From assembly GCF_024666525.1 (NCBI RefSeq), contig NZ_CP088294.1:3472001-3536000 (forward strand): 64,000 bases of DNA. The letters are read 5' to 3'. This DNA is from Pseudomonas sp. J452 (GTDB lineage: Bacteria; Pseudomonadota; Gammaproteobacteria; Pseudomonadales; Pseudomonadaceae). The position numbers and the translations under genes are program-made. The notes under the pieces were generated by a model that saw nothing but the letters and a program-made list of their open reading frames with translations, searched no databases and was not told the origin of the DNA. Below, one piece after another: positions 29,933 through 57,200 of the stretch (the stretch's first letter is position 1; the number at the start of each line of letters is the position of its first letter).

Positions 29933-31126
29933 TTAGGGGTGTCTGGAATCGCCTGATACCGATTTGATACCAATATTCAGCTTTTCCAGCTCACTCCAAT
30001 CGGAGCTTGAGTTAATCCAGCGGGCGTACGTAGACAGCAGCATCTGCACGCTATGGCCGAGCTGCTGGGATATGAAAGCGGGGTTCATGCCAGACATTAA
30101 GCATATTGTCGCATAGGTATGACGGCAGTTGTACGGCGGCCGATAACGAACACCCAGTGCTTTCAGCACCGGTCGCCACTGATGGTGCAGATCCGAGGTT
30201 TGCTTTACATACTCGTTGTTTTTGGACGGAGGGAAGACATAGGGTGTTTCAGTAACCTTTCCCACCCCAGATCTGCGGCGCTCTGCATAAGCCTTGGCGA
30301 ATTCCAGGGCATGCATGGCTCTTTCATTCAGCAGGACGAAGCGGTCACCACCGGTTTTGGTGCGCTCTTCAATGACACCTAGCGCTACCGTACGGCAAAC
30401 GTGAGCAACGCGCTTGGTCATGTCTACAGCGTCCCAGCGTAACGCCAATGCTTCGGATAGCCGCATTCCGGTGAAGAACGCAAATTCATAGAACGCTGCA
30501 TAGATAGTGCTCGGCCAGTGTTCGTGCTGGTACAGCCGCGCAATGATGCGATTGGCTTCATCCAAGGTGAACGGATCGATTTCCTTGCGCGAGCGCTTCG
30601 GTAGCTCAAGTGATTCTGCCGGATTGCGCTCAATTACTCCGTCTGCTACCGCCGCCTTAAAAATCGTGGAAATCTTGACGAGAGCATTCCTTTTAACGCC
30701 TGCGGATGCCCACTTGGTCCCAGCGATGATGCGACGGAGCAGGGTGGTGGTGATCAGATCCATTCGAACCAGAGCAAGCGACGGCATCCAGTAGCGGTTC
30801 AATGTGCTCTTGTAATTGAGCCTGGTACCTTCGGTAATTTCCCGGCTGTTCAACCACAGCTGTGCAAACTCGCCGAAGCAGGCAACTCCTCCAACGGGCA
30901 CTGCCGATCCTGGGAACAGCTCCGCATACTTGGCATCGTCCAGCAAATCCAGTTTGGACAGACCAACTACTTGATCTCTAAGTAGCGATGCAGCTGCGAT
31001 CCCTTTCGGCGTGACGGGATAAGGGAGCGTTTCGCTGCAGCGGCGTCCGCGCCACGTGAATCTGATGCGGAGTGAGGTGCGGAAAATTTCCACCCCGGCG
31101 GGCATATCCATTGGCTTTCGAGCCAT
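29933..31126 (-). CDS. Tyrosine-recombinase integrase (DUF3596 arm-binding type)
   Basis: 397 residues starting MARKPMDMPAGVEIFRTSLR. Residues 1-55 are the arm-type DNA-binding domain (IRFTWRGRRCSETLPYPVTP); a core-binding SAM-like domain lies at about 85-170. The catalytic domain has Arg in TGMRLSEALALRWDAVD, the box PPYNCRHTYATICLMSGMNP, QQLGHSVQMLLSTYARWI with the HxxR-type Arg-His and the final Tyr nucleophile. It looks intact. Elements with this integrase type usually insert next to the gene they abut, here ybiT. Confidence 0.93.
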   Translation of the reverse strand: MARKPMDMPAGVEIFRTSLRIRFTWRGRRCSETLPYPVTPKGIAAASLLRDQVVGLSKLDLLDDAKYAELFPGSAVPVGGVACFGEFAQLWLNSREITEGTRLNYKSTLNRYWMPSLALVRMDLITTTLLRRIIAGTKWASAGVKRNALVKISTIFKAAVADGVIERNPAESLELPKRSRKEIDPFTLDEANRIIARLYQHEHWPSTIYAAFYEFAFFTGMRLSEALALRWDAVDMTKRVAHVCRTVALGVIEERTKTGGDRFVLLNERAMHALEFAKAYAERRRSGVGKVTETPYVFPPSKNNEYVKQTSDLHHQWRPVLKALGVRYRPPYNCRHTYATICLMSGMNPAFISQQLGHSVQMLLSTYARWINSSSDWSELEKLNIGIKSVSGDSRHP

Positions 31127-31890: not shown

Positions 31891-32301
31891 AGGCCATTTT
31901 TGTATGGTCTACACGATGCCGAAACCCGTAAGAGTTCATGGAAAACGATCCCCCACTCAGGCCTTGGTAAATCCGCAGGATTTGAGCGGGTCTACCCATC
32001 AAAATGGCAACGAAAACATGACGTTCATGCTTATAAAGGGAAAACGCCTGTGTTTCAGGTTTTGCATTGGCAGATTTTGAGTGCCGCCAGCTCCACGTCG
32101 CCAAGGATTCGTGGATTGCGCGTTCTGACAGGCTGTTCTTCCGGGCCGGAAGAGGGGTCAAAACAAGCGTTTTATGCTTATAAAGGAAAACCGGAGAAAG
32201 CGTGGTTTGGGGCATGAGAGTCTAGGCAAGCACGCGTCGTGCTTAAGCCAAACGAGCGAGATTTGGCATTAACAAGAAAAGCATATTTTTCAATTCCGCC
32301 G
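31891..32301. repeat. ~400-bp direct repeat, copy A
   Basis: Diverged but collinear with 44,517-44,915. Shared blocks include CAGATTTTGAGTGCCGCCAG, GCTTATAAAGGGAAAA, and GATTTGGCATTAACAAGAAA. Inside each copy TGCTTATAAAGG-like sequence occurs twice about 130 bp apart, and near the end GCCAAA-N9-TTTGGC forms a hairpin. No reading frame is conserved between copies, so the repeat is non-coding. Confidence 0.75.
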
Positions 32302-32657
32302 ACCAGGGAGCCAAGCTTGCCGAGCTCTGTTCGAACTACCCCAGAGTGCAGCCGACTCTCTTGAATGTTTGTTTCGCGAGTCCCAGACGTCTCTCCCGCT
32401 ACAGCTAGGGGCAGGATTGCGCAGTGGCAATCCGCAACGGATCGTTTCCTTTCCTCCATAGCGGATGTTGTTTGCCTGATGGAAGACACGAACGCACTTG
32501 AGCGCGAGCACCTGACGCAACATGCTGTTAAAAGCCAGTCCAGTCCATAGAGCGCATGCCGGTAGGTCCTATCTCGACACCGAAGAACTGGGAAAGCTTG
32601 GGCGCCAGGTTCAGGCACTGTGGACGGCAGGGCGGGGTTGTGCGAACGGGAGTAAGT

Positions 32658-32990: not shown

Positions 32991-33103
32991 GAGCCCAGTG
33001 CCTTCCGGTGCAAATTACTAAATGCAGTAGATTGCTACTGTCTTGCGGTGCGCTTGCAAAACGGCTATGATCGTTTGCATATGGCTGCAGTAGGTCGATT
33101 TGC

Positions 33104-33694
33104 ATGAAAGTTCTTCCGCTCGGGCACGTCGCGAACGTTCGCACTGCCGTAGTTTTCCGAAGCCAAGCTCCCCAGGAAGTCGAGGGCGGCAATGTGCGCG
33201 CGCTGGCGATCCGGGATGTCGTCGCAGGCGGCCCTTTGCGGATTGAGGAGCTGCCTCAAATCCATATAGACGAAAGTCTTCAATTGCATTGTCTACATAC
33301 AGGGGAGGTAGTCCTGCCGTCACGCGGGGATCATTACAGGGCTCTCTACTTCGAGGGGCCCGCTGATCTCGTGTTCCCGCTTGGGCAGCTAAATATCATC
33401 ACCGCAGGACCTGAGGTGAATCCACGCTATCTCGCTTGGTATTTAAACTCTAAGTCGACGCAGACGAAAATCTCAGTGATGCTCACTGGCACAAGCATTA
33501 AGGCCTTTACTAAAGCCTCATTGTTAACTCTCGATATCGAGATACCCTCCCTGGAAAAGCAGCAAGTCATCTCTGAGTTGGATCGCAACACTCAGGATAT
33601 AAGCGCAGTTAGGCAGCGCTTGAATAATTTAGATCAGATTGAAGCTGCGTTCGTTACACAAACATTGTTGCGAAGGGGGGGGGGCGGTGCTTGA
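33104..33694 (+). CDS. Type I restriction specificity (HsdS)-like half-subunit ending in a G10 tract
   Basis: 196 residues starting MKVLPLGHVANVRTAVVFRS. It looks like one target-recognition domain: an early PLGHVANVRTG-like start, LPSRGDHYRALYFEGPADLV, NPRYLAWYLNSKSTQTKISV, then IPSLEKQQVISELDRNTQDI and a coiled-coil helix. A full HsdS has two such domains; this has one. The last codons are built from ten G residues (RRGGGGA then stop). With nine G residues the frame would continue directly into the methyltransferase. AT-rich codons unlike the backbone indicate transfer. Confidence 0.78.
   Translation: MKVLPLGHVANVRTAVVFRSQAPQEVEGGNVRALAIRDVVAGGPLRIEELPQIHIDESLQLHCLHTGEVVLPSRGDHYRALYFEGPADLVFPLGQLNIITAGPEVNPRYLAWYLNSKSTQTKISVMLTGTSIKAFTKASLLTLDIEIPSLEKQQVISELDRNTQDISAVRQRLNNLDQIEAAFVTQTLLRRGGGGA
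33675..33684 (+). repeat. G10 homopolymer tract at HsdS-like/HsdM-like junction
   Basis: Ten consecutive G residues lie across the junction of the two ORFs. Loss of one G (or gain of two) fuses the upstream frame to the downstream one. The tract is also where the downstream GTG would find its ribosome site. Confidence 0.9.
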
Positions 33695-35156
33695 TTTAAA
33701 CATTGCAGCTCCTATTGATCGCGCGATTCCGGAAGCATTTGAGGTTCTGCGTGCAAGTGGCCTGCTCGAGGACAACAGGCATCACGTACTTGCTCTGATC
33801 TTGCTTAAATATGTGACCGACACGGGTATTGAGGAGCAAGAGGCTAGCCACAGATGGTCAAGCGGCTTCCGCGTACCACAGGGTGCAAGTTTTAACTCTT
33901 TATATGAATTGAGAGGGCAGCGCCAAAATGGTGAGCGAATTAACGAGGCTCTTAGACGTATTGAAAGAGAAAATGAGCAACTAAAAGATGTTTTTATCGC
34001 TGCGGATTTTTCTTCGCCGAGACTTGGTGGAGAAAATCAGCGGGATGGTATCTTGGCTGGGTTGTTGGAGGCGATAAAAATTATTCCGTTTGCTAGCGCA
34101 GCCAATGAGGAGCACGCAGCACTCGTAGGTTCATATGTCTACGATTCATTTGTAAGGCATCAAGAGCAAAGTATGGGGCGCCGCTCCGGTGAGAATAGTA
34201 CACCGCAAGAAATTTCCAATCTTCTAGTCGAGCTTATGGATCCTAGTGAGTGGGATACAGTATCTGACCCTTGCTGTGGATTAGCCCAAACGCTTATGGC
34301 GTGTGACGATCATTCTCGCAAAAATCGCGGAAATGGATGTCAACTTTTCGGCCAAGAAGTGGCCGCCACCGTCTGGGTATTAGCCAGAATGGGCATGATT
34401 CTAGGTGGAAAAAACTGGTATCAGCTCGAGTGGGGTAACACACTTCGCGATCCCAAATTTTTGGATGACCCGGGGCAGCTTAGACGGTTCGATGTTGTTA
34501 TATCGCACCCGCCATTCTCTATGAAGGACTGGGGGCAAGAAGATTGTCAGTATGACCCGTATGGCCGTTATTCGCGCGGTGTTCCGCCGAAGGCCTCAGC
34601 GGATTTCGCGTTTATTAGTCATATGGTAAGTACCTTGAAACAAGGTACAGGCCGTATGGCAGTATTAGTGTCACACGGCGTTCTATTTCGTGGAGGCGCG
34701 GAACGCCAAATTCGCGAACGATTAATTGAGGACAATTTCGTTGATGCGATAATTTCATTGCCACCGCGGATGCTGATTAATACCGGTATAGAAACCGCTA
34801 TCCTAATTTTGCGCGCTGACAGAAAAGAAAGTGATGGCATCATGTTTATCGATGCAGGGCAGAACTATAACGCGGGAAGAGCAAGATGCACGCTTGGTAA
34901 AAATAACTTTGACCGGATTCTCTCAGTTTTTAAGTCGCGCGAGGAATGTGCTGGATACTCACGAGTAGTCACAAGGAGTGAGGTCGCATCGAGCGAGTAC
35001 AGCTTGTCAATTGCTCGCTATATAAAAGTCCTGGAAGAAGAGACAAGCTTCAACTTGGATGAGCTGCGTCGTCAGCGAGTGTATTTGCAGCATGAGTTAA
35101 TGAAGCTCGAGAGGCGGCGTCAAGAACTGTTAGATGAAATAGCAAGAGTCGAATAG
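33687..35156 (+). CDS. HsdM-like N6-adenine methyltransferase with altered catalytic motifs
   Basis: About 489 residues from GTG 33687. An N-terminal helical HsdM domain (VLRASGLLEDNRHHVLALIL) precedes the methylase domain. The SAM motif, DPxxGxGG in HsdM, reads VSDPCCGLAQTLMACD, and motif IV, normally NPPF, reads VVISHPPFSMKDWGQ: the catalytic Asn is His. The conserved SADFAFISHMVSTLKQGTGR and AVLVSHGVLFRGGAERQIRE segments are kept. A C-terminal coiled coil (LDELRRQRVYLQHELMKLER) could dock a specificity partner. No hsdR is present. It may bind modified DNA sites without methylating, or use altered chemistry. Confidence 0.82.
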   Translation: MLDLNIAAPIDRAIPEAFEVLRASGLLEDNRHHVLALILLKYVTDTGIEEQEASHRWSSGFRVPQGASFNSLYELRGQRQNGERINEALRRIERENEQLKDVFIAADFSSPRLGGENQRDGILAGLLEAIKIIPFASAANEEHAALVGSYVYDSFVRHQEQSMGRRSGENSTPQEISNLLVELMDPSEWDTVSDPCCGLAQTLMACDDHSRKNRGNGCQLFGQEVAATVWVLARMGMILGGKNWYQLEWGNTLRDPKFLDDPGQLRRFDVVISHPPFSMKDWGQEDCQYDPYGRYSRGVPPKASADFAFISHMVSTLKQGTGRMAVLVSHGVLFRGGAERQIRERLIEDNFVDAIISLPPRMLINTGIETAILILRADRKESDGIMFIDAGQNYNAGRARCTLGKNNFDRILSVFKSREECAGYSRVVTRSEVASSEYSLSIARYIKVLEEETSFNLDELRRQRVYLQHELMKLERRRQELLDEIARVE

Positions 35157-35263
35157 TGAGAAAGCTTTGCGTAGAAGCGACTTCTCATATTGAGTTCATG
35201 GGCGTAGGTCTGCTTTTGCAAACTACTATTGTTGTATGCCTTCATTAGACTAGGAGGTGATAA

Positions 35264-35485
35264 TTGAAAAAGCAGACCCGAGGCTCAGGTCGAGTTGATG
35301 CGACCGGCGATAAGCAGGCGAGGAGCCCATCCGAACATAGCCAGCGAATTAGCCTGGATCTGCGCTCACTGCGTTTGGAGCTTACGAACTATTCGTCAGT
35401 CGGAGCCACGCTGATCCTACTGAGCATGACATGCCTGGTGCTCGTAATCGCGTCGGTTGGCGGGGACTGGTGGAGCGCCCTTTAG
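35264..35485 (+). CDS. Small single-helix membrane protein, TTG start with perfect Shine-Dalgarno
   Basis: 73 residues. AGGAGGTGAT, a complete anti-16S match, sits just before TTG 35264. Residues 1-45 are polar and basic (KKQTRGSGRVDATGDKQARS), and residues about 48-68 form one helix (VGATLILLSMTCLVLVIASV). It lies 107 bp after the methyltransferase on the same strand and could be a small membrane partner of the cassette. Family unknown. Confidence 0.6.
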   Translation: MKKQTRGSGRVDATGDKQARSPSEHSQRISLDLRSLRLELTNYSSVGATLILLSMTCLVLVIASVGGDWWSAL

Positions 35486-35644
35486 CAGATTCATCGCATT
35501 GCAATGCGTCTCCCCAGAATCTGACAGTTGTCAGTGTCATCTGCAAGTCATTACATGCTGCAAGAGCCTGATTTGCCGAGAGAAAATAGGCTGACAAGCA
35601 ATGCTGTGAAAGCAAAACGGGAAGAGTGTTGCCAACGTCGACGC

Positions 35645-38600
35645 CTAGCCGGCAACACGGAAACCCATTAGCGAACTCTCGAACGCATCAAGCTCTTCAG
35701 GTTTAGGGGGCCAGTCGACATCGCGATTGTTCTTGTACCTTTCGATGGCGCTGGCGATCTCGGGCGAGTAGCTTTTGCTCTCGATGCGCTGGCGCCAATC
35801 GTCTTGGTAGACGTCATGCAATACCCCCAAGGCTACCAGAAGATGCTCGGCGATGGCTTGGCTAGGCGTGGCCTGCGGTGCGGGTGTGTGGCGCAGTTTA
35901 AGTTCGTCCAGAAGCGAATGATCTAACTGCTCGCCTTGTTGCAGCATCGCCAGGTAGCGAATCCGGTTGATAAAGCGCTTGATCGCCCTGGGGGTGATAT
36001 GGCGTTGGCTGACTAGGGGCAGCCATGCGTGAAGGGCCTCTTTGAAGGCGCCGGAGTCGTTGACCTGGCGTATGTCGGTACGAATTCGATAGAGCATTAC
36101 CCCGGCCACATAGACGGCAAATACCAGCACTACCGCGAAAATGCTGCTGATACCGAGCACACTGGTGCTAGCGGCCTGCACCGTTAACGCAGGCAACGGC
36201 ACGCTGGGCTGCGTGACGGTAGGTGCAGGGCTGAGAACCACTGCGTCGGTGGCCGATGTGGCAGCCGGACTGGTCGCTGCGGTCCTAGGGTTTGGTACAG
36301 GTGTTGCTGTTGGGTTTAGCGCTGCGCCTGTGTCAGCCGCTGCAGTCAGCGCAGGCTTGCTCGGCGAGTAGGTGACCATTTTTCCGGCTGCTGCACACAG
36401 CACTGCAACTAGGATCAGCACAAACAGCGGCCAGCGTTGCAGCATTTTCAGGGCCATATGGGTGGCCGCCGTTTCGTTGCGTTCGCTCGATTGCACCAGT
36501 CTCGACTGGTCCTTTGGATTCGGCACCTTGATCTCTACGTTGACCAGTTTTTCCAGGTATTTGCCGGCGTAGATCCAGCGTCGCTCATCCTCGCTCAGCG
36601 CTGCGGCTGCAGGGTCATGCAGGGCCAGTTCTTCGGCGAAATGCTCGAAGTGCAGGCCCAGGGCGGCCCTGATATAGCGGGTTTCCATCCCGAAAATCAC
36701 AAAGCAATTGCCCGAGGTAACCAGAAAGTTCACGGCTTCCAGCACGGTCAAAATGGTTTCTGGCTGGCAGCGGTCCAGGTCGTCGATGACGATAACGGTA
36801 CGATACGGCAGTGCCTCTGTGACGTCGGCAAACTCCTGGGCGAAAACACTGCGAAAGCTGCTCTGCGCCTGGGCTTCGTTGATACGAAAGCGTGAGGCGG
36901 TGTTGGACAATAATACGGCGGGGTCCACACCGTAGGCTTTTAATGCAGTGGACAGGCTCTTCCAGATAACCACGCCGGTTGCCAGTTGGCCGAGTAAGCT
37001 GCCTATCTCAGCATCCGAGATCGCTTCTGGGTTTTCCTCCTGTTTCAGTAGGGCCTCAAGCACCGTCAATAAGGTGTTCCATTCATCGTTGCTATGGAAA
37101 ATCACATAACCGGTCAAAAATGCAGTGGCGCCGATCAGCAGTGCCGCCAGCAACAGATTACTGCGCGACCGGATGTACAGCAGGCGCATGCGAAATGCCA
37201 AGCCGTCCAGCGACAAGAGCGAGGGCAAGCCCTGGTCGCGAATGCTGTTTAGCAGTGAGGCGAGCAACTGCTCTTCATTCTGGTGGTGCCAGGCGTTAAA
37301 CCAGATGGGGCGGTAGTTATAGCGGCGCAGGTCTTGGCAGATCATAGCCATCAGGCTGCTTTTCCCCGAGCCCCAGCCGCCAGATATCGCCACCGTCAAC
37401 GGCGGCTCCGTGCGCGTATTGCGCAGAAAGCGTGAAATGCCCCGCGCCAGCGGCGCAAAGCCGAGTTTGTCCTGCTCGGCATCGGCGGTGGGCGCGTCGG
37501 TGATGGCAATGGCGGCTGCTTTCTTCTCCTGAGGTGGCGGATCTGGCCGGAACATCATCCAGATCAACAGCGCCGCTAGCGCTACCAGGATCCAGAACCA
37601 TGGTGCTGGAAATTGCCAATAACGCAACGGCCATGCCTCGGTTTGCCAGCTTTCTCCCTTATCTCGGGTGTGCAACAAGGCTGGGGGGTAGCCAACAACC
37701 CAGCCTGTTTGGGCGTTAGCAGCCATGGCGATGGCCAGGCGGGTGGAGCCCACGTTGGTCGTGGCCCGCTCCCAGCTATCGCCGCCGTTAGTGGTACTCA
37801 GAAGCACTCCGCCATTGCCGGTGACCCAGCCGCGCTTGCCGTCGCTGGTTACATGTAGGCTGTTAAGCGATACCCCTTCGAGGTGGAACTGAATTCGCCA
37901 GGTGGCGCCGCCGTCAACGGTTTTGGCGATCAGGCCGTTATCGCCCGTGAGCCAGCCAGTGCTGCCATCCTTGGCAAAGTAGATGGCCTTCAGGTTAGTC
38001 GCGAAGGAGCGAACCTCCTTGCCAACGGTTTTCTCCGCAGGGGAGGGTAACTGCGTCGTAAGCAACCAGTGTTCGCCGCCGTTGGTGCTGCTGGCCAGCA
38101 AACCTCGGTCACCGACTGCCCAGGCGCGCCGGCCATCGCTATGCACGTAGACGCTTCTGAAGGTATCGCGGGTAGCGGGTGAGTCGCTCTTGGATAAAAG
38201 CTGCCTTCCCGCATGCCAGGTATCACCGCCGTCACTGGTCACCAGTGTGCTGGAGGCGCTACCAACCGCGATGCCGACCTGGCCCTGCAGGTCAAAGTCG
38301 ATATCCTGCCAATCAGCTTTGGGGAGATCTGCATGGGTGGTCCACGTGGAGCCTGCTTGTGCTTTGCTGAGCATCATTCCTTGGTCGCCGACCACCCAGG
38401 TACTGCCTTTTTCGACCAGGCTGGAGCCGTTCCAGCGCACCCCACCGGCTGGCATGCTGGCGCTCCAGCTGCGGCCTGCATCGTTGGAGGCCAGAATCAG
38501 CCCCGACGCGGCAAACGCATACACCTCGTTACCGGCGTTGCTAACCTCCACGCTGCGCAGCAGTGTATCGGTTGCCGTCGCTACCGCCGCCCAGGGGCTT

Positions 38601-39946
38601 GCGCGGTTAGGGCCATGGACAATGGTGCCGGCATCGCCCACGGCAATACCGTGGGTGTAACCGGTCAGTGCTTCGCGTCCCTCGGCAATCGGTTCAACCC
38701 AAGGCAACGGTGGCATTACGTCCGCAGGAACCTGCGTTGGAACGCGAGACGGTAGCTGCACGGGGCTTTGCCCAGACGATTGCGCATCAGGCCCGCCCGG
38801 CAAGTCACGTATTACCCCATCCGAGTTGGCGTCCAGTTGGCAAACCTGGCGGGCACGGCGTTTAGTTAATGCCCCCCCCCCGCCCTGGGTAAGGGCGGCG
38901 TCAAGACGAGCCTGGCCAAATAGCGCCAGACTGTTCAGGTTCGCCTGGGTGCCGCTTTCAATAGCCACCCAGTTAACGCCGTCCGTGCTAAACAATAGCG
39001 TGCCTTGCTCGCCGGAGGCCCAGATGCCCTCGGCACTGCCGATAACGCTGTTAAGGGTGCTCGTGGTGCCAGTGTTATGCGGAGCTGACCAACTCTCGCC
39101 CCAGTCCGTGGAGCTAACGATGAGGCCGTTTTCGCCCACCGCCCAGCCTTGGGGGCCGGAAAACCACACCGCGTTAAGTTGCGGCACTGGCCCATCGGCC
39201 GCGTGCACGTTTACCAGCAGCCACTCCCTGCCGCCGTTATTGGTTACCAGCACTGCCCCTTCAGCGCTAATCCAGCCGTACTTGCCGTCCTGACTGAAAA
39301 AGATCGACGACAGATTGTGTGCAGCCGTAACGCCTCTGCTTGGTAGCACCAACGAGCGCCAGCTTTGCGCGTTATCACGGCTCATTAGGAGGGTGCCATT
39401 GCGGCCAATCGCCCACAGCTCATCTGTCGATTCGTTGCGTTCGAGATCGACCAGGTCGCTGAGGTAACCCAGCTCGGGGCGCGGAGACACGTCTTGCCAA
39501 TGGGCGCCGCCATCGGTTGTGCGCAGCACGGTGCCACCATCACCCACGGCCCAACCCAGTTCGCCATTGGGCTGGAAACGCACGCTTCTGAGGTTGGCCT
39601 CGACGATATGGGCACTTGGCTTCCAGGTTTTGCCGCCGTCATCGCTGCTGACAATGGCGCCGCCCAGGCCCACTGCCCAGCCCCTGTCACCGATCATCTC
39701 TACGGCGGTAAGTGCGGCGGGTATCGCGGGTAAACGCAGGGCCGCGTTTACCTCCAGCGGATTAACAAACCAGCCCAGCCCATAGGTGTTTTGGCGCAGT
39801 TGCGCGCCAGACAGTTGCCACCAGGAGCCCAAGCAAGCGAGACCCAGCAATAACAAGGCGAACAATCCGAATGCGGAGCGCACTTTTGGCCGTTTGCTGC
39901 TGTTACTGCTGCTGGGCGCAGCAGGCTCTTCCGTCCTTGGTTGCAT
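35645..39946 (-). CDS. YCF48/BNR-propeller transmembrane KAP-family P-loop NTPase
   Basis: About 1,433 residues from ATG 39946 (a GTG 27 bp upstream is possible). Residues 25-45 form a helix (SAFGLFALLLLGLACLGSWW). Residues about 80-770 contain many BNR/YCF48 units (GWAVGLGGAIVSSDDGGKTW, GWAVGDGGTVLRTTDGGAHW and others). A helix (WFWILVALAALLIWMMF) at ~780 leads to the KAP NTPase: Walker A GGWGSGKSSLMAMI at ~857, inserted helices near 940, Walker B VIVIDDLDRCQPETI at ~1055, then two further helices at ~1185 and ~1280. The propeller should face the periplasm and the NTPase the cytoplasm. Related KAP proteins include the phage-exclusion protein PifA. A C10 run on the plus strand (G10 in the gene) encodes GGGG near residue 357. 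Confidence 0.85.
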   Translation of the reverse strand: MQPRTEEPAAPSSSNSSKRPKVRSAFGLFALLLLGLACLGSWWQLSGAQLRQNTYGLGWFVNPLEVNAALRLPAIPAALTAVEMIGDRGWAVGLGGAIVSSDDGGKTWKPSAHIVEANLRSVRFQPNGELGWAVGDGGTVLRTTDGGAHWQDVSPRPELGYLSDLVDLERNESTDELWAIGRNGTLLMSRDNAQSWRSLVLPSRGVTAAHNLSSIFFSQDGKYGWISAEGAVLVTNNGGREWLLVNVHAADGPVPQLNAVWFSGPQGWAVGENGLIVSSTDWGESWSAPHNTGTTSTLNSVIGSAEGIWASGEQGTLLFSTDGVNWVAIESGTQANLNSLALFGQARLDAALTQGGGGALTKRRARQVCQLDANSDGVIRDLPGGPDAQSSGQSPVQLPSRVPTQVPADVMPPLPWVEPIAEGREALTGYTHGIAVGDAGTIVHGPNRASPWAAVATATDTLLRSVEVSNAGNEVYAFAASGLILASNDAGRSWSASMPAGGVRWNGSSLVEKGSTWVVGDQGMMLSKAQAGSTWTTHADLPKADWQDIDFDLQGQVGIAVGSASSTLVTSDGGDTWHAGRQLLSKSDSPATRDTFRSVYVHSDGRRAWAVGDRGLLASSTNGGEHWLLTTQLPSPAEKTVGKEVRSFATNLKAIYFAKDGSTGWLTGDNGLIAKTVDGGATWRIQFHLEGVSLNSLHVTSDGKRGWVTGNGGVLLSTTNGGDSWERATTNVGSTRLAIAMAANAQTGWVVGYPPALLHTRDKGESWQTEAWPLRYWQFPAPWFWILVALAALLIWMMFRPDPPPQEKKAAAIAITDAPTADAEQDKLGFAPLARGISRFLRNTRTEPPLTVAISGGWGSGKSSLMAMICQDLRRYNYRPIWFNAWHHQNEEQLLASLLNSIRDQGLPSLLSLDGLAFRMRLLYIRSRSNLLLAALLIGATAFLTGYVIFHSNDEWNTLLTVLEALLKQEENPEAISDAEIGSLLGQLATGVVIWKSLSTALKAYGVDPAVLLSNTASRFRINEAQAQSSFRSVFAQEFADVTEALPYRTVIVIDDLDRCQPETILTVLEAVNFLVTSGNCFVIFGMETRYIRAALGLHFEHFAEELALHDPAAAALSEDERRWIYAGKYLEKLVNVEIKVPNPKDQSRLVQSSERNETAATHMALKMLQRWPLFVLILVAVLCAAAGKMVTYSPSKPALTAAADTGAALNPTATPVPNPRTAATSPAATSATDAVVLSPAPTVTQPSVPLPALTVQAASTSVLGISSIFAVVLVFAVYVAGVMLYRIRTDIRQVNDSGAFKEALHAWLPLVSQRHITPRAIKRFINRIRYLAMLQQGEQLDHSLLDELKLRHTPAPQATPSQAIAEHLLVALGVLHDVYQDDWRQRIESKSYSPEIASAIERYKNNRDVDWPPKPEELDAFESSLMGFRVAG
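38872..38881 (-). repeat. G10 homopolymer tract inside the BNR-KAP gene
   Basis: Ten C residues on the plus strand are ten G residues in the coding strand, within the codons for QGGGGALTKRR. The frame is open at this length; any change not a multiple of three would truncate the protein inside the propeller, before the NTPase. Confidence 0.9.
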
Positions 39947-40017
39947 AGCGTCACTCGTTGATAGCTGCCCCACAGTTCAGACCACAAATTGGCCCTTTGC
40001 CAGCATCGAGCCGCTAA

Positions 40018-41202
40018 AGAGCCCAACGCATTTGGTCTATGCGCTGGTGGGCGGCAGCAGCACGCTGTCGATTGGCCCGATGGCGCTCACCTTGCTGGTA
40101 ACGGCATCGGACCTGGCCACGCTTGCATCCAGCAGCCCAGGTGAGGCCTTGCTAGTGTCCGCCCAATTGGCCTTGCTCTGCGGGGCTGATTCTGCTGCTG
40201 TGTGCGTTGTTGCGCTTGGGTTTTCTCAGCGCCTTGCTCAGTCGCACGGTGCTCGGTGGCTTTACCGCGGGCGCCGCACTGCTGGTGGCGCAGGGGCAGC
40301 TGGAGGCCATGCGCGGTATGCCAGCCAATTGGCCATCGACCTTGCTGGGCGTCGGTATGTTGCTGGCGTTGTATGGCGCGCGCCGTTGGTTAAGTGGGCC
40401 GCTGGCGCGGCTAGCCCCAGCGCTGTTGTTGGCGTTGGCCATGCTGCTGGTAGCGTGGTGGCGGCTGGATCTGCTTGGCGTGCAGATACTAGGTGACTTG
40501 CCCAAGGGGGCTGCCGCTGCCGGGACCTGCCTTGCAGCCTTCGCGCTGGCCCGAGCTGCTGTCGTCGGCGTTGCTGCTGGCGTTTGTGATCTTCGTTTCT
40601 GGGCATTCTTCTGTACTGGTATTGGCGCAGCGCCGTGGCGAGCGTTTCGATGATGGCCGCCAGTTGCTCGGTCAGGGTTTGGCCAATATGGCCAGCGGAC
40701 TGTTTGCGGGGCTGCCGGTCAGTGGTGGGTTGTCGCGCTCGGCACTCAATCATGCCGCCGGTGTCCGTAGCCAATTAGCCGGGCTGGGGACTGCGCTGCT
40801 CCTGGCTCTGGCGCTTCTGGCGCCCACCGACTGGTTACACTGGCTACCACTATCGGCGTTGGCGGCCACCATTATTTTTGCTGCACTTGGCATGCTTGAT
40901 CTGGATAGCTTGCACCAAGCCTGACGTTACGACCGTGGGAGGCCGGCGTGTGGTTGGCAACCGCCGCCAGTGAGTTGCTATTGGGCGTGGAGAAGGGCGT
41001 GCTGCTGTCCCTCGGTGGCCACCTGGCGCGCAATGCCCGGCCGCATATTGCCGTGCTGGGGCGTATGCCCGACGGCGAGACCTTCCGCAATGTGCTGCGC
41101 TACAAAGTCGAGACACAGCCCCATCTTCTGCTCCTGCGTGTCGATGCCAGTCTGTTCTTCGGCAATGCCGCGGCGATACCCCGCGGCTTGAGGAACTGGT
41201 AA
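40018..41202 (+). pseudogene. Decayed SulP-family anion permease gene
   Basis: SulP sequence continues through three frames: YALVGGSSTLSIGPMALTLL (near 40,040), then RLGFLSALLSRTVLGGFTAG (from 40,210), then SALLLAFVIFVSGHSSVLVL and SGLFAGLPVSGGLSRSALNH (40,560-40,760), a stop at 40,922, then ASELLLGVEKGVLLSLGGHL (from 40,960). The N-terminal ~60 residues and the STAS domain are missing. At least three frameshifts and a stop make it non-functional. The left end abuts the start region of the KAP gene, so that insertion may have cut it. Confidence 0.88.
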
Positions 41203-44516: not shown

Positions 44517-44915
44517 AGGCTACTTTTGTAGCCCACACGATGCGGAAATACGTAATAACTGATGGCGAATGAGCCGCCCCTCAGTCCCTAGTGAATTCGC
44601 GGGTTTGAGCGGTTTTCTATGGTCACGAAACCAAGGCGTTTGTGCTTATAAAGGGAAAATTCTTTTGTTTCAGTTCTGGATTGGCAGATTTTGAGTGCCG
44701 CCAGCCCCATGTCGCTAAGAGTTAGTGGGGGCTCGTTCTGACAGGCGCTATCGGGCTGCGCACAGGGGGACGCAAAACAAGCGTTTTTGGCTTATAAAGC
44801 GAAACCGGGAAAAATACAGTCTCAGGCATGAAGACCTAGGAAACCGGGCGTTGCTTAAGCCAAACCAGAGAGATTTGGCATTAACAAGAAAAGCACATTT
44901 TCGAATTTCACCGCC
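44517..44915. repeat. ~400-bp direct repeat, copy B
   Basis: The partner of 31,891-32,301 in the same orientation, about 70-75% identical by eye, including both TTATAAAG units and the terminal GCCAAA-N9-TTTGGC hairpin. Together they bracket 12.2 kb of accessory DNA. The stretch 44,916-45,241 holds nothing else recognisable. Confidence 0.75.
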
Positions 44916-45241
44916 CACCTAAGACGTGATGTGAGGCAGCCTGTATTTCAGGGCAGATCGAACAACGTCGTCTGGGAACGAGAGCATCTGACAGGCTGCT
45001 GGCGCTCCTCAAGCTCACGCAGCAGCCGCATACCTATTCAAGACTCCTCGCTTTGCCTTTCTGATATGACGTGCTCTTGGCCCTTTGATGGGGGGAGGGT
45101 CAGTAGGTTGTGCATTTTGTCTGGATCCGCTGCATATGACTGGAACGTACATGGACGCAGCCGGTAATATGAAAAAATTATTTGGGCTGCTTGCGCTGTA
45201 GACGCGGCCCCGGCAGTAATCGTGATAGGGACATCCTGAGT

Positions 45242-48200
45242 ATGCTGGCAAGGAATCTGGCTCGCGTAGCCGCTTGTGTCGGGGTTGCGTTCGGTTTTTG
45301 GTTTTCCACATCGGTCGGGGCCGCTCCAGGCATTGACCATCGTTTCGCCACCCCGCACTACGCGGAGGGCCGTCTGCAACTGGACGTGCTCGACCTGCAG
45401 GTGCAGGCCCTGGGCGCGCCGGTGCGCATTCTGCGCAGCTGGAAGGGCGGTAAGTGGGTGTGGAACGAGCGCTGGGCTGACCTGGAAGTGCTCGGCGCCG
45501 CCGATGCTTCGGCGCCGCAGGGCGCCGCCGACCCGGCCAACGCCGACAAACCCTACGCCATCGTCCGCGCCGGGCAGAGCTACCTGCGCGCGAGCAGCAC
45601 CGCGCAAGGCCAGGACATCTCGTTCAACAACCTGCCGCAACGCACCCTGATTGCCCTGCAGCGCGGCCTGGCGGGCTACCGCTGGCAAGACACCCAAGGC
45701 AACCGCAACGAATACGACGCCCAGGGCCGCATCACCGCCTACCTGGACCACAACGGCATCCGTACCAGCCTGGTGCGCGACAGCGAAGGACGCATCGCCG
45801 AGATCAAGGATCACCACGGCGAGAGCCTGATCACCCTGACCTACAGCGCCGGCAACCTGACCAGCGTCAAGGACTACAGCGGCCGCGAAGTCAAATACGA
45901 GTACAGCAACAACCGCCTCAGCGCCGTGACCGACGTGCTCGGCAAACGCTGGCAGTACCACTACGACGCAAACGGCCTGGCCGGCTACACCGACCCGCTG
46001 CAACAGCGCACCGGCTTCGTCCTCGGCAAGGATGACCGCGTGCAGGAACGCCGCCTGCCGGATGGCCGCTTCACCCAATACAGCTACAGCTACGACGAAG
46101 CCCAGGAGCAGTACTACCTGCGCAGCGTCGACCAGGCTGGCCTAGTCAAAGAACAGTGGTACGACCGCCTGGGTCAACTGGTGCGCGAGCAACTGGACGG
46201 CGAGACCCAGTTCAGCCGCAGCTACCTGCTCTCGGACCGCTCCAGCGACATGAGCAAAGTGGCCGAGGCCTACCGCATCAGCGGCAAAAGCCTGGCCGTG
46301 ACCAAGGAAATCTCCCAGCGTCAGGGCCGTGCACCGTCGCCCTACGTGGCGCAGATGACCGAAGAAGACGCCCACGGCAACCGCACCCTGACCGAGTACA
46401 ACCGCTACGGCCAGACCATCCGCGTGCAGTACGCCGATGGCAGCGAGATCAGAAAGAGCTACGACCCGGCGACCAACCGCATTGCTGAAGAGATCAGCGA
46501 GCGCGGGATCAAGACCCAGTACCGTTACGACGGTAAGGGCAATCTGATTGAGATGATCGAAGCGGCGGGGCTACCGGAAGAAACCCGTACCGGTTATCGC
46601 TACAACGCCCTAGGCCAACTGGAAGGCGAAGACCGCCCCGGTGACGAGGCGGCGCAGACCCCGGCGGCGGGCTGGAACTATGGCTACGACGGCAAAGGCA
46701 ACCGCAACCTGGTGCGTGACCCGCTGGGCTACGAGACCCGGTACACCCACAACGTGCTGGGTAATGTGCTGAGCGTGACCAATGCCCGCGAGAAGACCTG
46801 GAGTGCTACCTACGACGCGGCGGGCAACCTGAAGAGCCTGAAGACACCGCTGAATCAGGAGACGCTGTACAGCTATGATGACCTAGGTCAGCGGGTCAGT
46901 GTGCAGGCTCCGAACGGTGCGACACAAACAATTGAGCCGAATGCAGCGGGTTTGCCGGAGAGCATCGTCGACGCGGCGAATGCGCGGACCCAGTTTGAAT
47001 ACGATGCGAGCCAGCGGCTGGTGGCGGTAGTGGACCCCTATGGCAATCGGAAGGAGAGCTATTACGACAGCCGAGGCCGTCTGAAAACGAGTAGGGACCA
47101 AGCAGGCAATGCTGCACAGTTTCGCTATGAGCAGGATCGGTTGTCAGGTATCGACTATCCGACGTACCAAGAAAACTACGAATACGATAACCGTGAGCGA
47201 CGGCTGAGTGAGGCTCGCCTCTATAGCGAGCGGGGTGAGGTTAAGACTCAGCGAGACCAGTTCCGCTATCTGGCAGATGGTTTGCAGTCGGAGTGGATAG
47301 ATCCTGCACAGAACGCTACTCGCCCCAGCTACGACAACCTGGGACGGTTGACTAGCAGCACCGATGCCGAAGGTGGTGTGACTCGGTATACCTACGATGT
47401 TCGCGGCAATATGGTTCAAGTCACTGATCCGGCCGGGCGTATAACTCGTTTTCGCTACGATGCCCGCGATGCAGTGGCGAGCGAAATCAAGGCTGGCAAT
47501 GGTGATACGCCGACGACAGAGCGCCGCTACGCTTACGACGAGGTGGGCAACCTCAAGCAGGTCATCACCCCGGATGGTCGTGTCAGCACCTATCACTACG
47601 ACGACGGTAATCGTCTGATTCGTACTGATCATTTCGCTACGGCCTCGGCAGCGGAGGCCGGCCAGGCTGACAGCGCCATCACCTACGGTTATAACGCGCT
47701 CAATCGTCTGGCCAGCTACGAGGACGAAACCAGCAAGGCGGTCTACACCCACGACGTGCTGGGTCGGGTGGAAAGCATCACGACCACATATAAGCAGGCT
47801 GACCCGGTTTTCAGCAAGACCATCAGTTATACCTACGACCTGAACGGTCGCAAGGCCAGCTACACCACACCCGATCAGCAGACCTACGGCTACCGCTACA
47901 CCCCGCATGGCCGCTTGGCCGGTGTAAGCATCCCGGACGAAGGCAGCATCAGCTTCCAGGACTTTAACTGGCTGATGCCGAAGAGCATTCTGTTCCCTGG
48001 CGGTAATCAGTACAGCCTCTCCTACGACGGCCTGCAGCGTTATGAGGGGCGCGTCCTCAAGGATGCCGCCGGAAACCCGATCCTGAGTTGGCAGTACGAC
48101 TACGATGCGGTGGGCAATATCACCGCCATCGAGGGCCAGGGCGGAAAGGCCACCTATGGATACGACAAACTGTACCGCCTGACCGAGGCCAAGTACCCGG

Positions 48201-49435
48201 AGGGTGACGATCGAAAGAACGAGGCCTATGCCTACGACGGTGTGGGCAACCGTCTGGACGAGGCCGTAAGTAAGGACGAGCTGGATATCGGCCAGTGGCA
48301 GTACAACGCCCATAACCAACTGATCAGCCACGACGGTATCGGTTACCGTTACAACGTCGACGGTCACCTGATCGAAAAGGGCGCGCTACAGGGCGAACAG
48401 CTGGTGCAGAGCGGCGGCATCGACCATTGGCAGTACCAGTACGACAGCCGTGAGCGCCTGGTGGCCGTACACAAGAATGGCCAGCCGCTAGTGGCGTACC
48501 GCTACAACCCACTGGGCCAGCGCCTGAGCAAGACCCTGCTGCCCAGCCAGCGCACCACCTACTACCTGTACAGCGAAGAAGGCCTGGTGGGCGAGTACGA
48601 TGAACAGGGCAACCTCCGGCAGGAATATGCCTACGACCCAACCAAGCCCTGGATGAGCCAGCCGCTGTTCACCCGCGCGAAACGGCAGGACAACCAGCAG
48701 TGGAGTATCAGCTACTTCGCCACCAGCCACCTTGGTACCCCCGAGGCGGCCTTCGAGAAGAGCGGCGAAGTAACCTGGCGCGCCAAGGCCCAGGCTTTTG
48801 GGAAAACCCAAATAAACCTCGCCACCATCGACAACCCGCTGCGCTTCCCCGGGCAGTACTTCGATGCGGAAACCGGGCTGTACCAGAACTACTTCCGCGA
48901 CTACGACCCGGCACTGGGGCGGTATGTGCAGAGTGATCCGATTGGGTTGAGAGGAGGGATTAACTATTATGTTTATGTTAATTCTGCACCATTATTTAGT
49001 TTTGACCCGGATGGGCTATACGAAACTCAACATGACGCTGCTCGTGCTGCAATGTCAGCGTATAACCCTATTTCAAAAAGGGAAAATAGAGAGTATTGCG
49101 GGAATGTTTGCTGGAGTTGTGAGAAGGGGTATTTTTATACTGTGGCGGAGCCGGCGAAAAGCGCTAAATCAACGTGTCAGCCGTATTATGCAAAGTGCCC
49201 AGAAGGCGCTATAAAACTTGCTTATTGGCACACTCATGGTGCTGTGAATGACGCTAATCACGATGGCGTGGATGATGACCGCTCGGAGGAGTTTTCTGAC
49301 GCTGATAAGGAATACGTTGATGATCATGAGATTGATGGCTATGTATCTACGCCTAGCGATGATGTCTATTTCTATAGCTATGAGAAGAGTGATCGGGATC
49401 CGGATTATCAACCGGAGGGGTTGGAGAAATTATGA
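45242..49435 (+). CDS. Sec-exported Rhs/YD-repeat protein with C-terminal WHTHG (DUF4329-like) domain
   Basis: 1,397 residues starting MLARNLARVAACVGVAFGFW, a Sec signal peptide cut near SVGA. Residues about 40-1,225 are YD repeats (YDAQGRITAYLDHNG, YDNLGRLTSSTDAEG and many more). The Rhs core ends at DPIGLRGGINYYVYVNSAPL near 1,232. The last ~140 residues are AT-rich and different: YETQHDAARAAMSAYNPISK, many Cys, LAYWHTHGAVND near 1,328, and EEFSDADKEYV. This matches DUF4329-type (JAB-like) tips, a probable toxin. There is no PAAR or T6SS N-terminus. Its stop overlaps the next gene's start. Confidence 0.88.
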   Translation: MLARNLARVAACVGVAFGFWFSTSVGAAPGIDHRFATPHYAEGRLQLDVLDLQVQALGAPVRILRSWKGGKWVWNERWADLEVLGAADASAPQGAADPANADKPYAIVRAGQSYLRASSTAQGQDISFNNLPQRTLIALQRGLAGYRWQDTQGNRNEYDAQGRITAYLDHNGIRTSLVRDSEGRIAEIKDHHGESLITLTYSAGNLTSVKDYSGREVKYEYSNNRLSAVTDVLGKRWQYHYDANGLAGYTDPLQQRTGFVLGKDDRVQERRLPDGRFTQYSYSYDEAQEQYYLRSVDQAGLVKEQWYDRLGQLVREQLDGETQFSRSYLLSDRSSDMSKVAEAYRISGKSLAVTKEISQRQGRAPSPYVAQMTEEDAHGNRTLTEYNRYGQTIRVQYADGSEIRKSYDPATNRIAEEISERGIKTQYRYDGKGNLIEMIEAAGLPEETRTGYRYNALGQLEGEDRPGDEAAQTPAAGWNYGYDGKGNRNLVRDPLGYETRYTHNVLGNVLSVTNAREKTWSATYDAAGNLKSLKTPLNQETLYSYDDLGQRVSVQAPNGATQTIEPNAAGLPESIVDAANARTQFEYDASQRLVAVVDPYGNRKESYYDSRGRLKTSRDQAGNAAQFRYEQDRLSGIDYPTYQENYEYDNRERRLSEARLYSERGEVKTQRDQFRYLADGLQSEWIDPAQNATRPSYDNLGRLTSSTDAEGGVTRYTYDVRGNMVQVTDPAGRITRFRYDARDAVASEIKAGNGDTPTTERRYAYDEVGNLKQVITPDGRVSTYHYDDGNRLIRTDHFATASAAEAGQADSAITYGYNALNRLASYEDETSKAVYTHDVLGRVESITTTYKQADPVFSKTISYTYDLNGRKASYTTPDQQTYGYRYTPHGRLAGVSIPDEGSISFQDFNWLMPKSILFPGGNQYSLSYDGLQRYEGRVLKDAAGNPILSWQYDYDAVGNITAIEGQGGKATYGYDKLYRLTEAKYPEGDDRKNEAYAYDGVGNRLDEAVSKDELDIGQWQYNAHNQLISHDGIGYRYNVDGHLIEKGALQGEQLVQSGGIDHWQYQYDSRERLVAVHKNGQPLVAYRYNPLGQRLSKTLLPSQRTTYYLYSEEGLVGEYDEQGNLRQEYAYDPTKPWMSQPLFTRAKRQDNQQWSISYFATSHLGTPEAAFEKSGEVTWRAKAQAFGKTQINLATIDNPLRFPGQYFDAETGLYQNYFRDYDPALGRYVQSDPIGLRGGINYYVYVNSAPLFSFDPDGLYETQHDAARAAMSAYNPISKRENREYCGNVCWSCEKGYFYTVAEPAKSAKSTCQPYYAKCPEGAIKLAYWHTHGAVNDANHDGVDDDRSEEFSDADKEYVDDHEIDGYVSTPSDDVYFYSYEKSDRDPDYQPEGLEKL

Positions 49436-49803
49436 TTAGATTGTTTTTTTTTGCTGCGTTGCTTGCTTGCTCCTTTTCTGTTTTTGCAGGTCAGGCGTCA
49501 TGTAGTTCGATCTCGGAAAGGGCGCTTCAAATCATTGAGCTTTCAAAAGGTGGGCTGAAGCAAGAAACTGGTGAGGTGGGTGGGTATCAGTTGATTTCGG
49601 TGGAACGCCATAAAAATCACTGGAATAGAATCACGAAAAATAATCCTGATGGAGACTATTCAAGACGTCTTCGAGGTGTTTTGAAAGATAAGTGTTATTG
49701 GTTCGCACTTTATATGCCACAGGAAAGCCAGTTGGGTGGGGATTTTGGCTTTTTTATTGATGACAAAGATGGAAAGATTTTATTTGTTTATAGAGGGAAG
49801 TGA
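49432..49803 (+). CDS. Exported small protein, probable immunity partner of the Rhs tip
   Basis: 123 residues starting MIRLFFFAALLACSFSVFAG, a Sec signal peptide. The mature protein is small with a few Cys and a late LGGDFGFFIDDKDGKILFVY. It overlaps the Rhs stop by ATGA and shares its AT-rich composition, the usual setting for a cognate immunity gene. A periplasmic immunity protein would fit a toxin that acts there. No family recognised. No terminator is seen in 49,804-50,088. Confidence 0.65.
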   Translation: MIRLFFFAALLACSFSVFAGQASCSSISERALQIIELSKGGLKQETGEVGGYQLISVERHKNHWNRITKNNPDGDYSRRLRGVLKDKCYWFALYMPQESQLGGDFGFFIDDKDGKILFVYRGK

Positions 49804-54290: not shown

Positions 54291-57200
54291 ACGGATTGGC
54301 ATTAGCCCGTTACCTGCTGCTTGGTGTGGGCCTCGGTCTTGGTTTGCCGGCTTTGGCACAGCAGGTTGTGATCAATAGCAACAGCAGCCTGCCGCAAGAC
54401 AGTCAGCAGTATCAGAGCGATGACGTCATCGTAGATGGCGTCATCCTGACTCTTTCCGGTGCCACCCGTTTCGGCACCCTGACCCTGCGCAACAACGCGC
54501 GTATCACGTCTGCTACCGGTTCCGTTCTGAGTGTGAGCGCTAGCAGCGTTAGCATTGATGCCAGCTCCAGGATCGATGTCAGTGCCAATGGAAATGGCCC
54601 GAACACCGCATCGACCACCAATTACTACGCAGGTGGCAGCTACGGCGGCCGTGGTGGTGGTTACAACGGTACTTATTACTCGCCGGGTACTTATGGTGAT
54701 TTCCGTCTTCCGCGTTCTCTGGGCACGGGAGGGCGATACAACAACGATGCATCCCCGTTTACTCGCGGTGGCGGCGCTCTGGAGTTGGTGGCTGAAAACC
54801 TGAATCTCGACGGTCAGCTTCTCGCCAATGGACAAGCCATCACCGGCTCAACCTACGGTTCGGGCAGTGGTGGTTCGGTGTTGGTGCAGGTCGGTAGCCT
54901 GAACCTGGGGGCTCAGGCCCTTATCCGGGCCGATGGTGGTGGTCATGCAAGCTCGCAGACCTACGGCGGTGGTGGCGGTGGTCGGGTGGCCGTGTATTAC
55001 GCTCAGTTGGCCCAGGGCAGCCTGGAGGGGCGGCTCAGCGCTCGTGGTGGTTTATCGACCCAGGCTGAGCACGGTAGCGCCGGCAGTATTTATCTGAAAA
55101 ACACTCAGAGCGGCAACGAGGAATTGCTGTTCGATAACAGCGGTGTAACCGGTAATGCTGTCAGCAGTTACCTCGATTTGAGTACTGGACCCGCTTTTGC
55201 AGGGACGCTGCGTTTTATCAACGCCAGTGCCTCGTTGCAGGGTGAGCTGGCCTATGACGCCAGTCTGACGGCACAGCGCAGTCTGCACCTTAAGGGAGCG
55301 ACTCTGTATCTTGCCGGCGAACAGGCCTTTTCCCAAATCAGCCTGCAGTCAGCGACGCTCACCACATCGTCATTTGCCGCGCTCAAGCTGCGCGCTGACC
55401 AGATCAGTGTCGATGCCAGCTCCAAGATCGATGTCAGTGCCAAAGGCAATGGTCCGAACACCGCATCGACCACCAACTACTGGGTAGGCGGCAGCTACGG
55501 CGGTTCTGGTGGCGGCTACAACGGTACGTATTACGCGCTACCAACCCGTGGTGACTACCGCCTGCCACGCGACTTGGGTTCCGGTGGACGGCAAGGTTCT
55601 AGTACCAGCAATTGGACGCGTGGTGGTGGTGCCGTGGAGCTGCAGGCCGAAAGCCTGAGTCTCGACGGGCAGATTCTCGCCAATGGACAAACCATCACCG
55701 GCTCAAGCTACGGCTCGGGCAGTGGTGGTGCCGTGTTGCTGCAGGTCGGCAGCTTGAGCCTGGGTGCTCAGGCCCTTATCCGGGCCGATGGTGGTGGTCA
55801 TGCGACCTTGCAGACTTATGGTGGCGGTGGTGGTGGGCGTGTGGCGCTGCATTACCGCGAGCTGGCCCAAGGTAGCCTGGAGGGCCGGCTTAGTGCCCGC
55901 GGTGGTATATCGACCCAGGCCCAGCACGGTGGTGCCGGCAGTGTGTATCTGAAAAGCACCCAGAGCGGCAGCGAGGAGTTGCTGTTCGATAACAGTGGTG
56001 TGCCAGTCACGAATGTTCCCTCCAGTTATCTGAATCTGCTTGCGGGGCCGGCTTTTGTGGGGCCGCTGCGCTTCATTAACGCCAATGCTTCGATGGGGGG
56101 GGAGCTGGCCTATGATGCGGGGCTGACCGCACAGCGCAGTTTGCATCTGAGTGGAGGTTCGCTGAGTTTGACGGGCGAGCAGGCCTTCCAGCAGGTCGTT
56201 CTGCAACAATCTGCGGTTCTCTCCTCGCAGACGGGGACTGCACTCAAATTGCGTGCTGAGCAGGTGAGTGTCGATGCCAGCTCCAAGATCGATGTCAGCG
56301 CCAGAGGCAAAGGTCCGATCACCGGATGGACCACCAACCACTACGCAGGTGGCAGCTACGGCGGTCGTGGCGGCGCTTACAGCAACTATTACTCGCAAGC
56401 AACCTATGGGGATTTCCGCCTGCCGCGCGACTTGGGTACTGGGGGGCGACATAGTTCGAGCACCAGCAACTGGACGCTTGGAGGTGGTGCTCTGGAGCTG
56501 CAGGCCGAAAGCCTGAGTCTCGACGGGCAGATTCTCGCCAATGGACAAACCATCACCGGCTCAGTCTACGGTTCGGGTAGCGGTGGTGCCGTGTTGCTGC
56601 AGGTTGGCAGCTTGAGCCTGGGTGCACAGGCCCTTATCCGGGCCGATGGTGGTGGTCATGCGACCTTGCAGACCTATGGGGGCGGTGGCGGGGGGCGTGT
56701 GGCGCTGCATTACCGTCAACTGGTCCAGGGCACCCTGGACGGGCGTCTCACTGCGCGCGGTGGTTTATCGACCCACGCTCAGGCGGGCGGCGCCGGCAGT
56801 GTGTATTTGAAGAATACCCAAAGCGGCAGCGAGGAGTTGCTGTTCGATAACAGCAGCGTACCCACAACTAATGCCGCTAGCAGTGATTTAAATTTAAGCA
56901 CCGGGTCGGCTTTTGCAGGGCCGCTGCGCTTCGTTAATGCCAATGCTTCGCTGAATGGTGGGCTGGTCTATGACGCCGTTCTGACTGCGAAGCGCAGTCT
57001 GCATCTGAGTGGAGGCTCGCTGAGCCTGGCGGGTGAGCAGGCCTTTGCTCAGGTCAGTCTGCAGTCAGCGACGCTCACCACGCCTTTCAGTGCCGTGCTC
57101 AAGCTGCGTGCCGAGCAGATCAGTATCGATGTCAGTTCCAAGATCGATGTCAGTGAAAAAGGCAATGGTCCGAACACGACATGGACCACCAACCACTACG

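Follow-up and report, generated by a model that had tools for sequence, protein, structure and literature searches.

Two G10 tracts in an S–M gene pair and a neighbouring KAP ATPase gene of Pseudomonas sp. J452: probably separate, lineage-specific runs in unrelated genes

Results

The locus and its tracts

The window (the whole stretch of 64,000 nucleotides of Pseudomonas sp. J452 DNA that was analysed) carries overlapping genes for a single-TRD specificity protein (S) and an HsdM-family protein (M) and, converging on them from the opposite strand, a gene for a BNR/YCF48–KAP membrane ATPase (Table 1). The Pfam match in S spans residues 106–158 only, and the start adopted for M agrees with that of a 489-residue database protein (P0004). 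The KAP open frame begins upstream of its likely start, at GTG 39973 (35645–39973, minus strand, 1442 aa). Its product has a PF07693 domain (1.3e-26), a Walker B motif (VIVIDDLDR) and five hydrophobic segments, as looked for in a KAP P-loop NTPase, and would be a membrane-spanning sensor ATPase.

Exactly ten G stand at each of two sites, as the sequence-only reading had counted them, 5.2 kb apart and each inside a reading frame, that of S and that of KAP. No other G/C run in the 64 kb reaches nine, the next longest being a G8 at 56095 and then a G7 at 58084. Overlapping G8 words number seven in the window against a mean of 3.29 in its dinucleotide shuffles, 9 of 100 of which reach seven, and the excess is only mildly unusual. 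The complete genome (one contig of 4,862,927 bases) holds ten tracts of at least nine, seven of which are of at least ten, and when seven tracts are placed randomly in the genome two fall within 5.2 kb of each other in 4.4 per cent of trials. Both tracts are real, and their closeness to each other is suggestive, a hint only.

Table 1. Coordinates of the genes, motifs and tracts in the window
Feature	Position	Strand	Remarks
S, single-TRD specificity protein (half-S type), 196 aa	33104..33694	+	Pfam Methylase_S; PADLOC Specificity_I
G10 tract, 3' end of S	33675–33684	+	2 bases ahead of M start codon
M start/S stop overlap, 8 bases, GTGCTTGA	33687..33694	+	
M, HsdM-family protein, 489 aa, GTG start	33687..35156	+	Pfam N6_Mtase (1e-73) and HsdM_N
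BNR/YCF48–KAP membrane ATPase gene	35645..39946	−	Likely ATG by alignment to P0125–P0129; Pfam PSII_BNR and KAP_NTPase
KAP Walker A, GGWGSGKS, residues 865–872	37358..37381	−	Lost if the frame stops near residue 369
G10 tract, KAP gene	38872–38881	− (C10 on forward strand)	Codes part of GGGGA, a non-conserved inter-blade linker

The S–M genes lie in a block of lower GC that has a phage-type integrase gene at its edge (29933–31126, minus strand). A tRNA search across the window found none, and the direct repeats of at least 20 include no short att-like ones. Imperfect direct repeats of about 300 bp (32004–32305 and 44619–44917, matching at 72–88 per cent in pieces, 12.6 kb apart) flank S–M, KAP and the remnant of a sulfate permease (SulP) gene, and the second copy is immediately upstream of an RHS gene. 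The SulP remnant (39996–41178, plus strand) starts 23 bases past the 5' end of the KAP frame and reads in several frames, through decay or error. The RHS-repeat protein (45182–49452, 1417 aa) has a C-terminal DUF4329, and a T9 run (49444–49452) stands at the start of the ORF next to it.

The S–M junction

The first tract had been placed at the junction of an HsdS-like and an HsdM-like part. The position is right; the tract itself belongs to S, and M proper begins downstream of it, at GTG 33687. Frame computation bears out the claim that S and M are out of frame at ten G and that a length of nine joins both into one protein: S runs into M at G9 (683 aa) and also at G12 (684 aa). Elsewhere S measures 195 residues at G7, 197 at G8, 196 at G10, 198 at G11 and 197 at G13. 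Over lengths 7–13 it loses at most one residue and M is untouched, since M can be read from its own start at every tract length. The same computation therefore speaks against a classic on/off switch at this site, as neither gene is broken.

Nor does the separation of S and M appear to be a special state, as had been proposed. The closest pairs among 249 genus genomes (own included), G002 (S 57 per cent and M 44 per cent identical) and G183 (S 56 per cent, M 40 per cent), are likewise separate, and their genes also overlap by 8 bases (ATGGCTGA in G002, ATGATTAA in G183) at junctions without a run of six or more G. Fused-length relatives of M are absent among the 119 non-self matches listed of 4367, which are 454–522 aa long, and no S–M fusion occurs among 11 further matches in 398 phylum genomes. 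Because the orthologues are separate and the relatives are not fused, the present tract length would simply keep S and M in what, on these comparisons, is their ordinary state. A 668-aa open frame in G434 was considered as a natural S–M fusion and rejected, as it consists of M plus an out-of-frame upstream stretch. RNA structure was likewise rejected as an explanation of the G run (z −1.21, with equally good folding in 22 of 200 shuffles).

The KAP tract

A change of tract length is computed to switch a gene off at KAP and not at S/M. The KAP gene is on at G10, as the sequence-only reading held, its frame being open through the tract; the frame is whole at G7, G10 and G13 and ends at residue 368–370 at G8, G9, G11 and G12, with the stop inside the BNR propeller part and the ATPase absent.

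The homologues P0125–P0129 have the same KAP frame and no four-glycine run anywhere (judged on protein records). P0125, from Pseudomonas farris (63 per cent over the part searched), reads KHSSRSI at the tract site with a linker of equal length; the linker is also of equal length in P0126 and two residues shorter in P0127, and its residues vary freely between homologues. At the DNA level the gene of P. protegens 14B2 (L041, KAP 50 per cent) contains no G/C run of at least eight, no run of at least nine falls within the matched stretch in 80 KAP-relative loci (among them two pairs that share their sequence), and among the KAP-relative frames checked no G/C run of at least nine was found besides the window's own; one relative (L086) has a G8 near its frame start. 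The KAP tract is private to one strain among those compared, and it is the better switch candidate of the two, presently on. In Pseudomonas sp. C1C7 a G10 run lies about 2.3 kb downstream of the KAP gene (L071, 16131–16140), in a 457-aa open frame and near the upstream end of that frame.

Tract-free homologues with the same frames accordingly exist for both S/M and KAP, which marks the present frames as normal and does not preclude slippage. Conservation of the tract, which is supportive of a contingency locus and not strictly defining, was found neither at S/M (G002, G183) nor at KAP (P0125–P0129).

What the S–M pair may be

By the PF04313 test S–M does not make up a full type I restriction system, because the complete genome yielded no HSDR_N protein, while the same profile matches in 9 of 14 control genomes. 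Motif I of M reads DPCCGLAQ and motif IV SHPPF, so that M departs from a type I M with the NPPF form of motif IV. NPPF is the active form of this motif, and its Asn is catalytic. Among 59 aligned sequences (own included) the Asn is kept in 18 and absent in 41, being replaced by Ser in 31, His in 5, Cys in 3, Gln in 1 and Thr in 1; the orthologues read SQPPF (G002) and SHPPF (G183). The Ser of M may well be compatible with an active enzyme, and the set with Ser, His or Cys at this place possibly has another chemistry or serves as a non-catalytic subunit.

The G002 pair adjoins HsdM, HsdR and Abi_2 genes and the G183 pair a Shedu SduA gene, from which we infer that S–M may be an accessory pair for DNA recognition or modification in defence islands. 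A plasmid DNA search with window positions 33000–40000 gave no match, and in a DNA search of 398 genus genomes 7 others matched, none across the S–M genes. At the protein level, the phage search with M returned 31 records, all below 60 per cent identity, the plasmid searches with M and P0025 had HsdM-type proteins at 38–47 per cent among the matches listed, and viral contigs held five loci with M relatives at 32–38 per cent.

Other G tracts in the genome and the genus

Four of the genome's seven runs of at least ten lie in genes, and all four of these genes have PADLOC matches; the other three runs (18, 11 and 29 G) were deemed intergenic from the surrounding frames. The G18 (C1:15098–15115) and G29 (C1:4759225–4759253), apparently intergenic, are unusually long and either real or artefact. 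Next to the G18 an alpha-2-macroglobulin-like stretch reads in several frames, again by decay or error.

Outside the window, a G10 at C1:1539450 parts a metallophosphoesterase frame from an nSTAND6–TPR frame that is out of register with it (L005, C1:1536500–1542500). Among the best 19 non-self relatives listed, 17 have both Pfam domains in one chain, and in 10 of the 19 the two split frames match adjacent parts of one chain with the G run at the join, at identities of up to 78 per cent (STAND part) and 81 per cent (esterase part). The gene is split here, with intact copies elsewhere, and in 298 genomes at E 1e-60 it has no Pseudomonas relative but itself. The fourth in-gene run, a G11 at C1:4027282, is in frame and close to the end of a PLD/NgoFVII-like gene (L009, C1:4024200–4030400); three relatives turned up in 298 genus genomes, and their loci lack any run of at least seven.

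A survey of 16 other Pseudomonas genomes found at least 50 runs of ten or more, of which 2 near contig ends were left out, 48 were taken and 2 of these that end contigs were set aside. The remaining 46 include two copies of one place (L165, L169), and the 10 most gene-like spanning frames were scanned, those judged off-strand or off-frame being left out. On these scans 1 of the 46 has a PADLOC match (a PLD protein), against 4 of 7 in the own genome (p 6e-4), or 2 of 5 without the window pair (p 0.023). The enrichment is a lead, not a result: it is post hoc and depends on our own sorting, and for KAP and PLD the PADLOC matches are of a generic kind.

Discussion

We favour, with modest confidence, a reading in which the two tracts are separate, lineage-specific runs in two unrelated genes, the KAP tract being switch-like while the S/M tract only joins or separates. 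At KAP, slippage would act as an ordinary on/off stutter switch, now on. At S/M it would exchange two overlapping proteins for one S–M chain (at 9 or 12 G), and other lengths would alter the end of S by up to two residues, with neither gene switched off. S is probably a half-subunit, pairing both with another S and with M to form a DNA-recognition complex of 1:1 composition, and because of this a fused S–M chain might still assemble. In that case the S/M tract would at most modulate S:M coupling, and it is perhaps just a run that is tolerated. Against this reading stand the tract lengths, each known as a single value from one assembly, and the fact that relatives keep neither tract, although a selected switch might be conserved. 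Homopolymers in assemblies can be miscounted, and the assembly at hand contains the G18 and G29. Loss of mismatch repair was rejected as a cause of the tracts: MutS and MutL are both open in the genome, so raised slippage from repair loss is not expected.

There is some reason to think that the runs are instead neutral or misread, a tentative alternative that deserves to be taken seriously. The Gs would then sit at tolerant places (the end of S and the variable KAP linker), stable or miscounted and with no switching role. The freedom of the KAP linker residues to differ fits this explanation, as do the wholeness of S and M at most S-tract lengths, the absence of the tracts from relatives, the poly-G found at contig ends in other assemblies (L174, L177), and the frequency of such runs in the genus, since at least one run of ten or more occurs in 34 of the 36 same-genus genomes listed (own included). 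The PADLOC matches of the in-gene tracts (4 of 7 in the own genome, 1 of 46 in the survey, with 10 spanning frames scanned there) speak against it, in a post hoc comparison.

A single phase-variable surface or defence cassette, in which S–M and KAP are varied together as the sequence-only reading had suggested, is very improbable. The proximity of the tracts (chance probability 0.044), the defence-like families to which PADLOC assigns S–M and KAP, and the nearby integrase gene could all be accommodated by it. The genes lie on opposite strands, however, the S/M tract is unable to turn a gene off, and S/M and KAP are neighbours in no other locus examined. No S or M match at E 1e-5 was found in 81 loci with KAP relatives (flanks of 0–10 kb, a few loci being duplicates) and no KAP match in 24 S–M or M loci besides the window's own, and in G002, which shares its KAP sequence with Pseudomonas sp. 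C1C7, S–M and KAP are on different contigs (C44 and C12). The six neighbours scanned of the P. protegens 14B2 KAP gene encode a metallo-hydrolase, an AadA-type transferase, an NMT1-like binding protein, an AMP-binding enzyme, an AraC regulator and one protein without a match, and one KAP neighbour in Pseudomonas sp. C1C7 is Tle1-like. Joint variation of S–M and KAP as one system is not supported.

That the natural product is a single S–M protein and the ten-G state its broken form is the least credible proposal, already disfavoured despite the 683-aa open frame at G9, as no fused relative stands among the 119 listed or the 11 phylum matches and the 8-base overlap is conserved in two orthologues.

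It is conceivable, though on the whole doubtful, that four unrelated defence-like genes (S/M, KAP, the metallophosphoesterase–STAND–TPR gene at C1:1.54 Mb and the PLD nuclease gene at C1:4.03 Mb) independently gained G10–11, that clone-mates differ in their active defences, and that S/M represents a form of switch absent from the literature searched, half-S plus M against one chain. Should the tracts slip, slipped-strand switching would span several kinds of immune gene in one Pseudomonas rather than one R-M system, phage resistance would differ among members of a clone, and stutter at the S/M junction would switch subunit architecture, not expression. Should they not slip, a G tract between frames can mark ordinary overlapping genes rather than a broken fusion.

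Comparison with known systems

The nearest documented counterpart is NgoAV of Neisseria gonorrhoeae, a phase-variable type I methyltransferase whose half-length hsdS1 carries poly-G at its 3' end; one G less fuses hsdS1 to hsdS2 and one more has no apparent effect on activity in vitro (PMC9577141, PMC6789123). Its tract is given there as 6–9 G (PMC9577141). Tracts of ten fall among the lengths at which switching occurs in other bacteria. The window resembles NgoAV in its half-length S (196 aa, against 208 aa in NgoAV) with poly-G at the 3' end, which one G less fuses onward and one G more leaves nearly unchanged. The downstream frame differs: in NgoAV fusion is to a second S half and alters specificity, whereas here the partner is M. 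NgoAV also has hsdR in its locus, whereas the PF04313 search found no HSDR_N protein in this genome, and length variation is documented for NgoAV, whereas the window tract is known from one assembly. In the titles and abstract openings searched, neither an S–M fusion switch nor a poly-G tract in KAP or metallophosphoesterase–STAND genes was found.

The KAP gene has a domain order, a KAP P-loop NTPase (PF07693) with BNR/YCF48 propellers, that is common to many relatives in proteobacteria and beyond, and differs from the homologues compared in the glycine-coding G tract, which these lack. M is predicted by sequence to have the HsdM-family fold of the nearest solved sequences, the type I M of 7vru/7vs4 (E 2.8e-66 to chain A), and departs from chain A in the alignment at motif IV (SHPPF against NPPF). 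In the Pgl phage defence of Streptomyces a G-tract switch in pglX breaks the methyltransferase. The S/M junction shares with it a G tract in a defence-like methyltransferase system and differs in where the tract lies: the pglX tract breaks the methyltransferase itself, whereas that of the window stands upstream of the M start.
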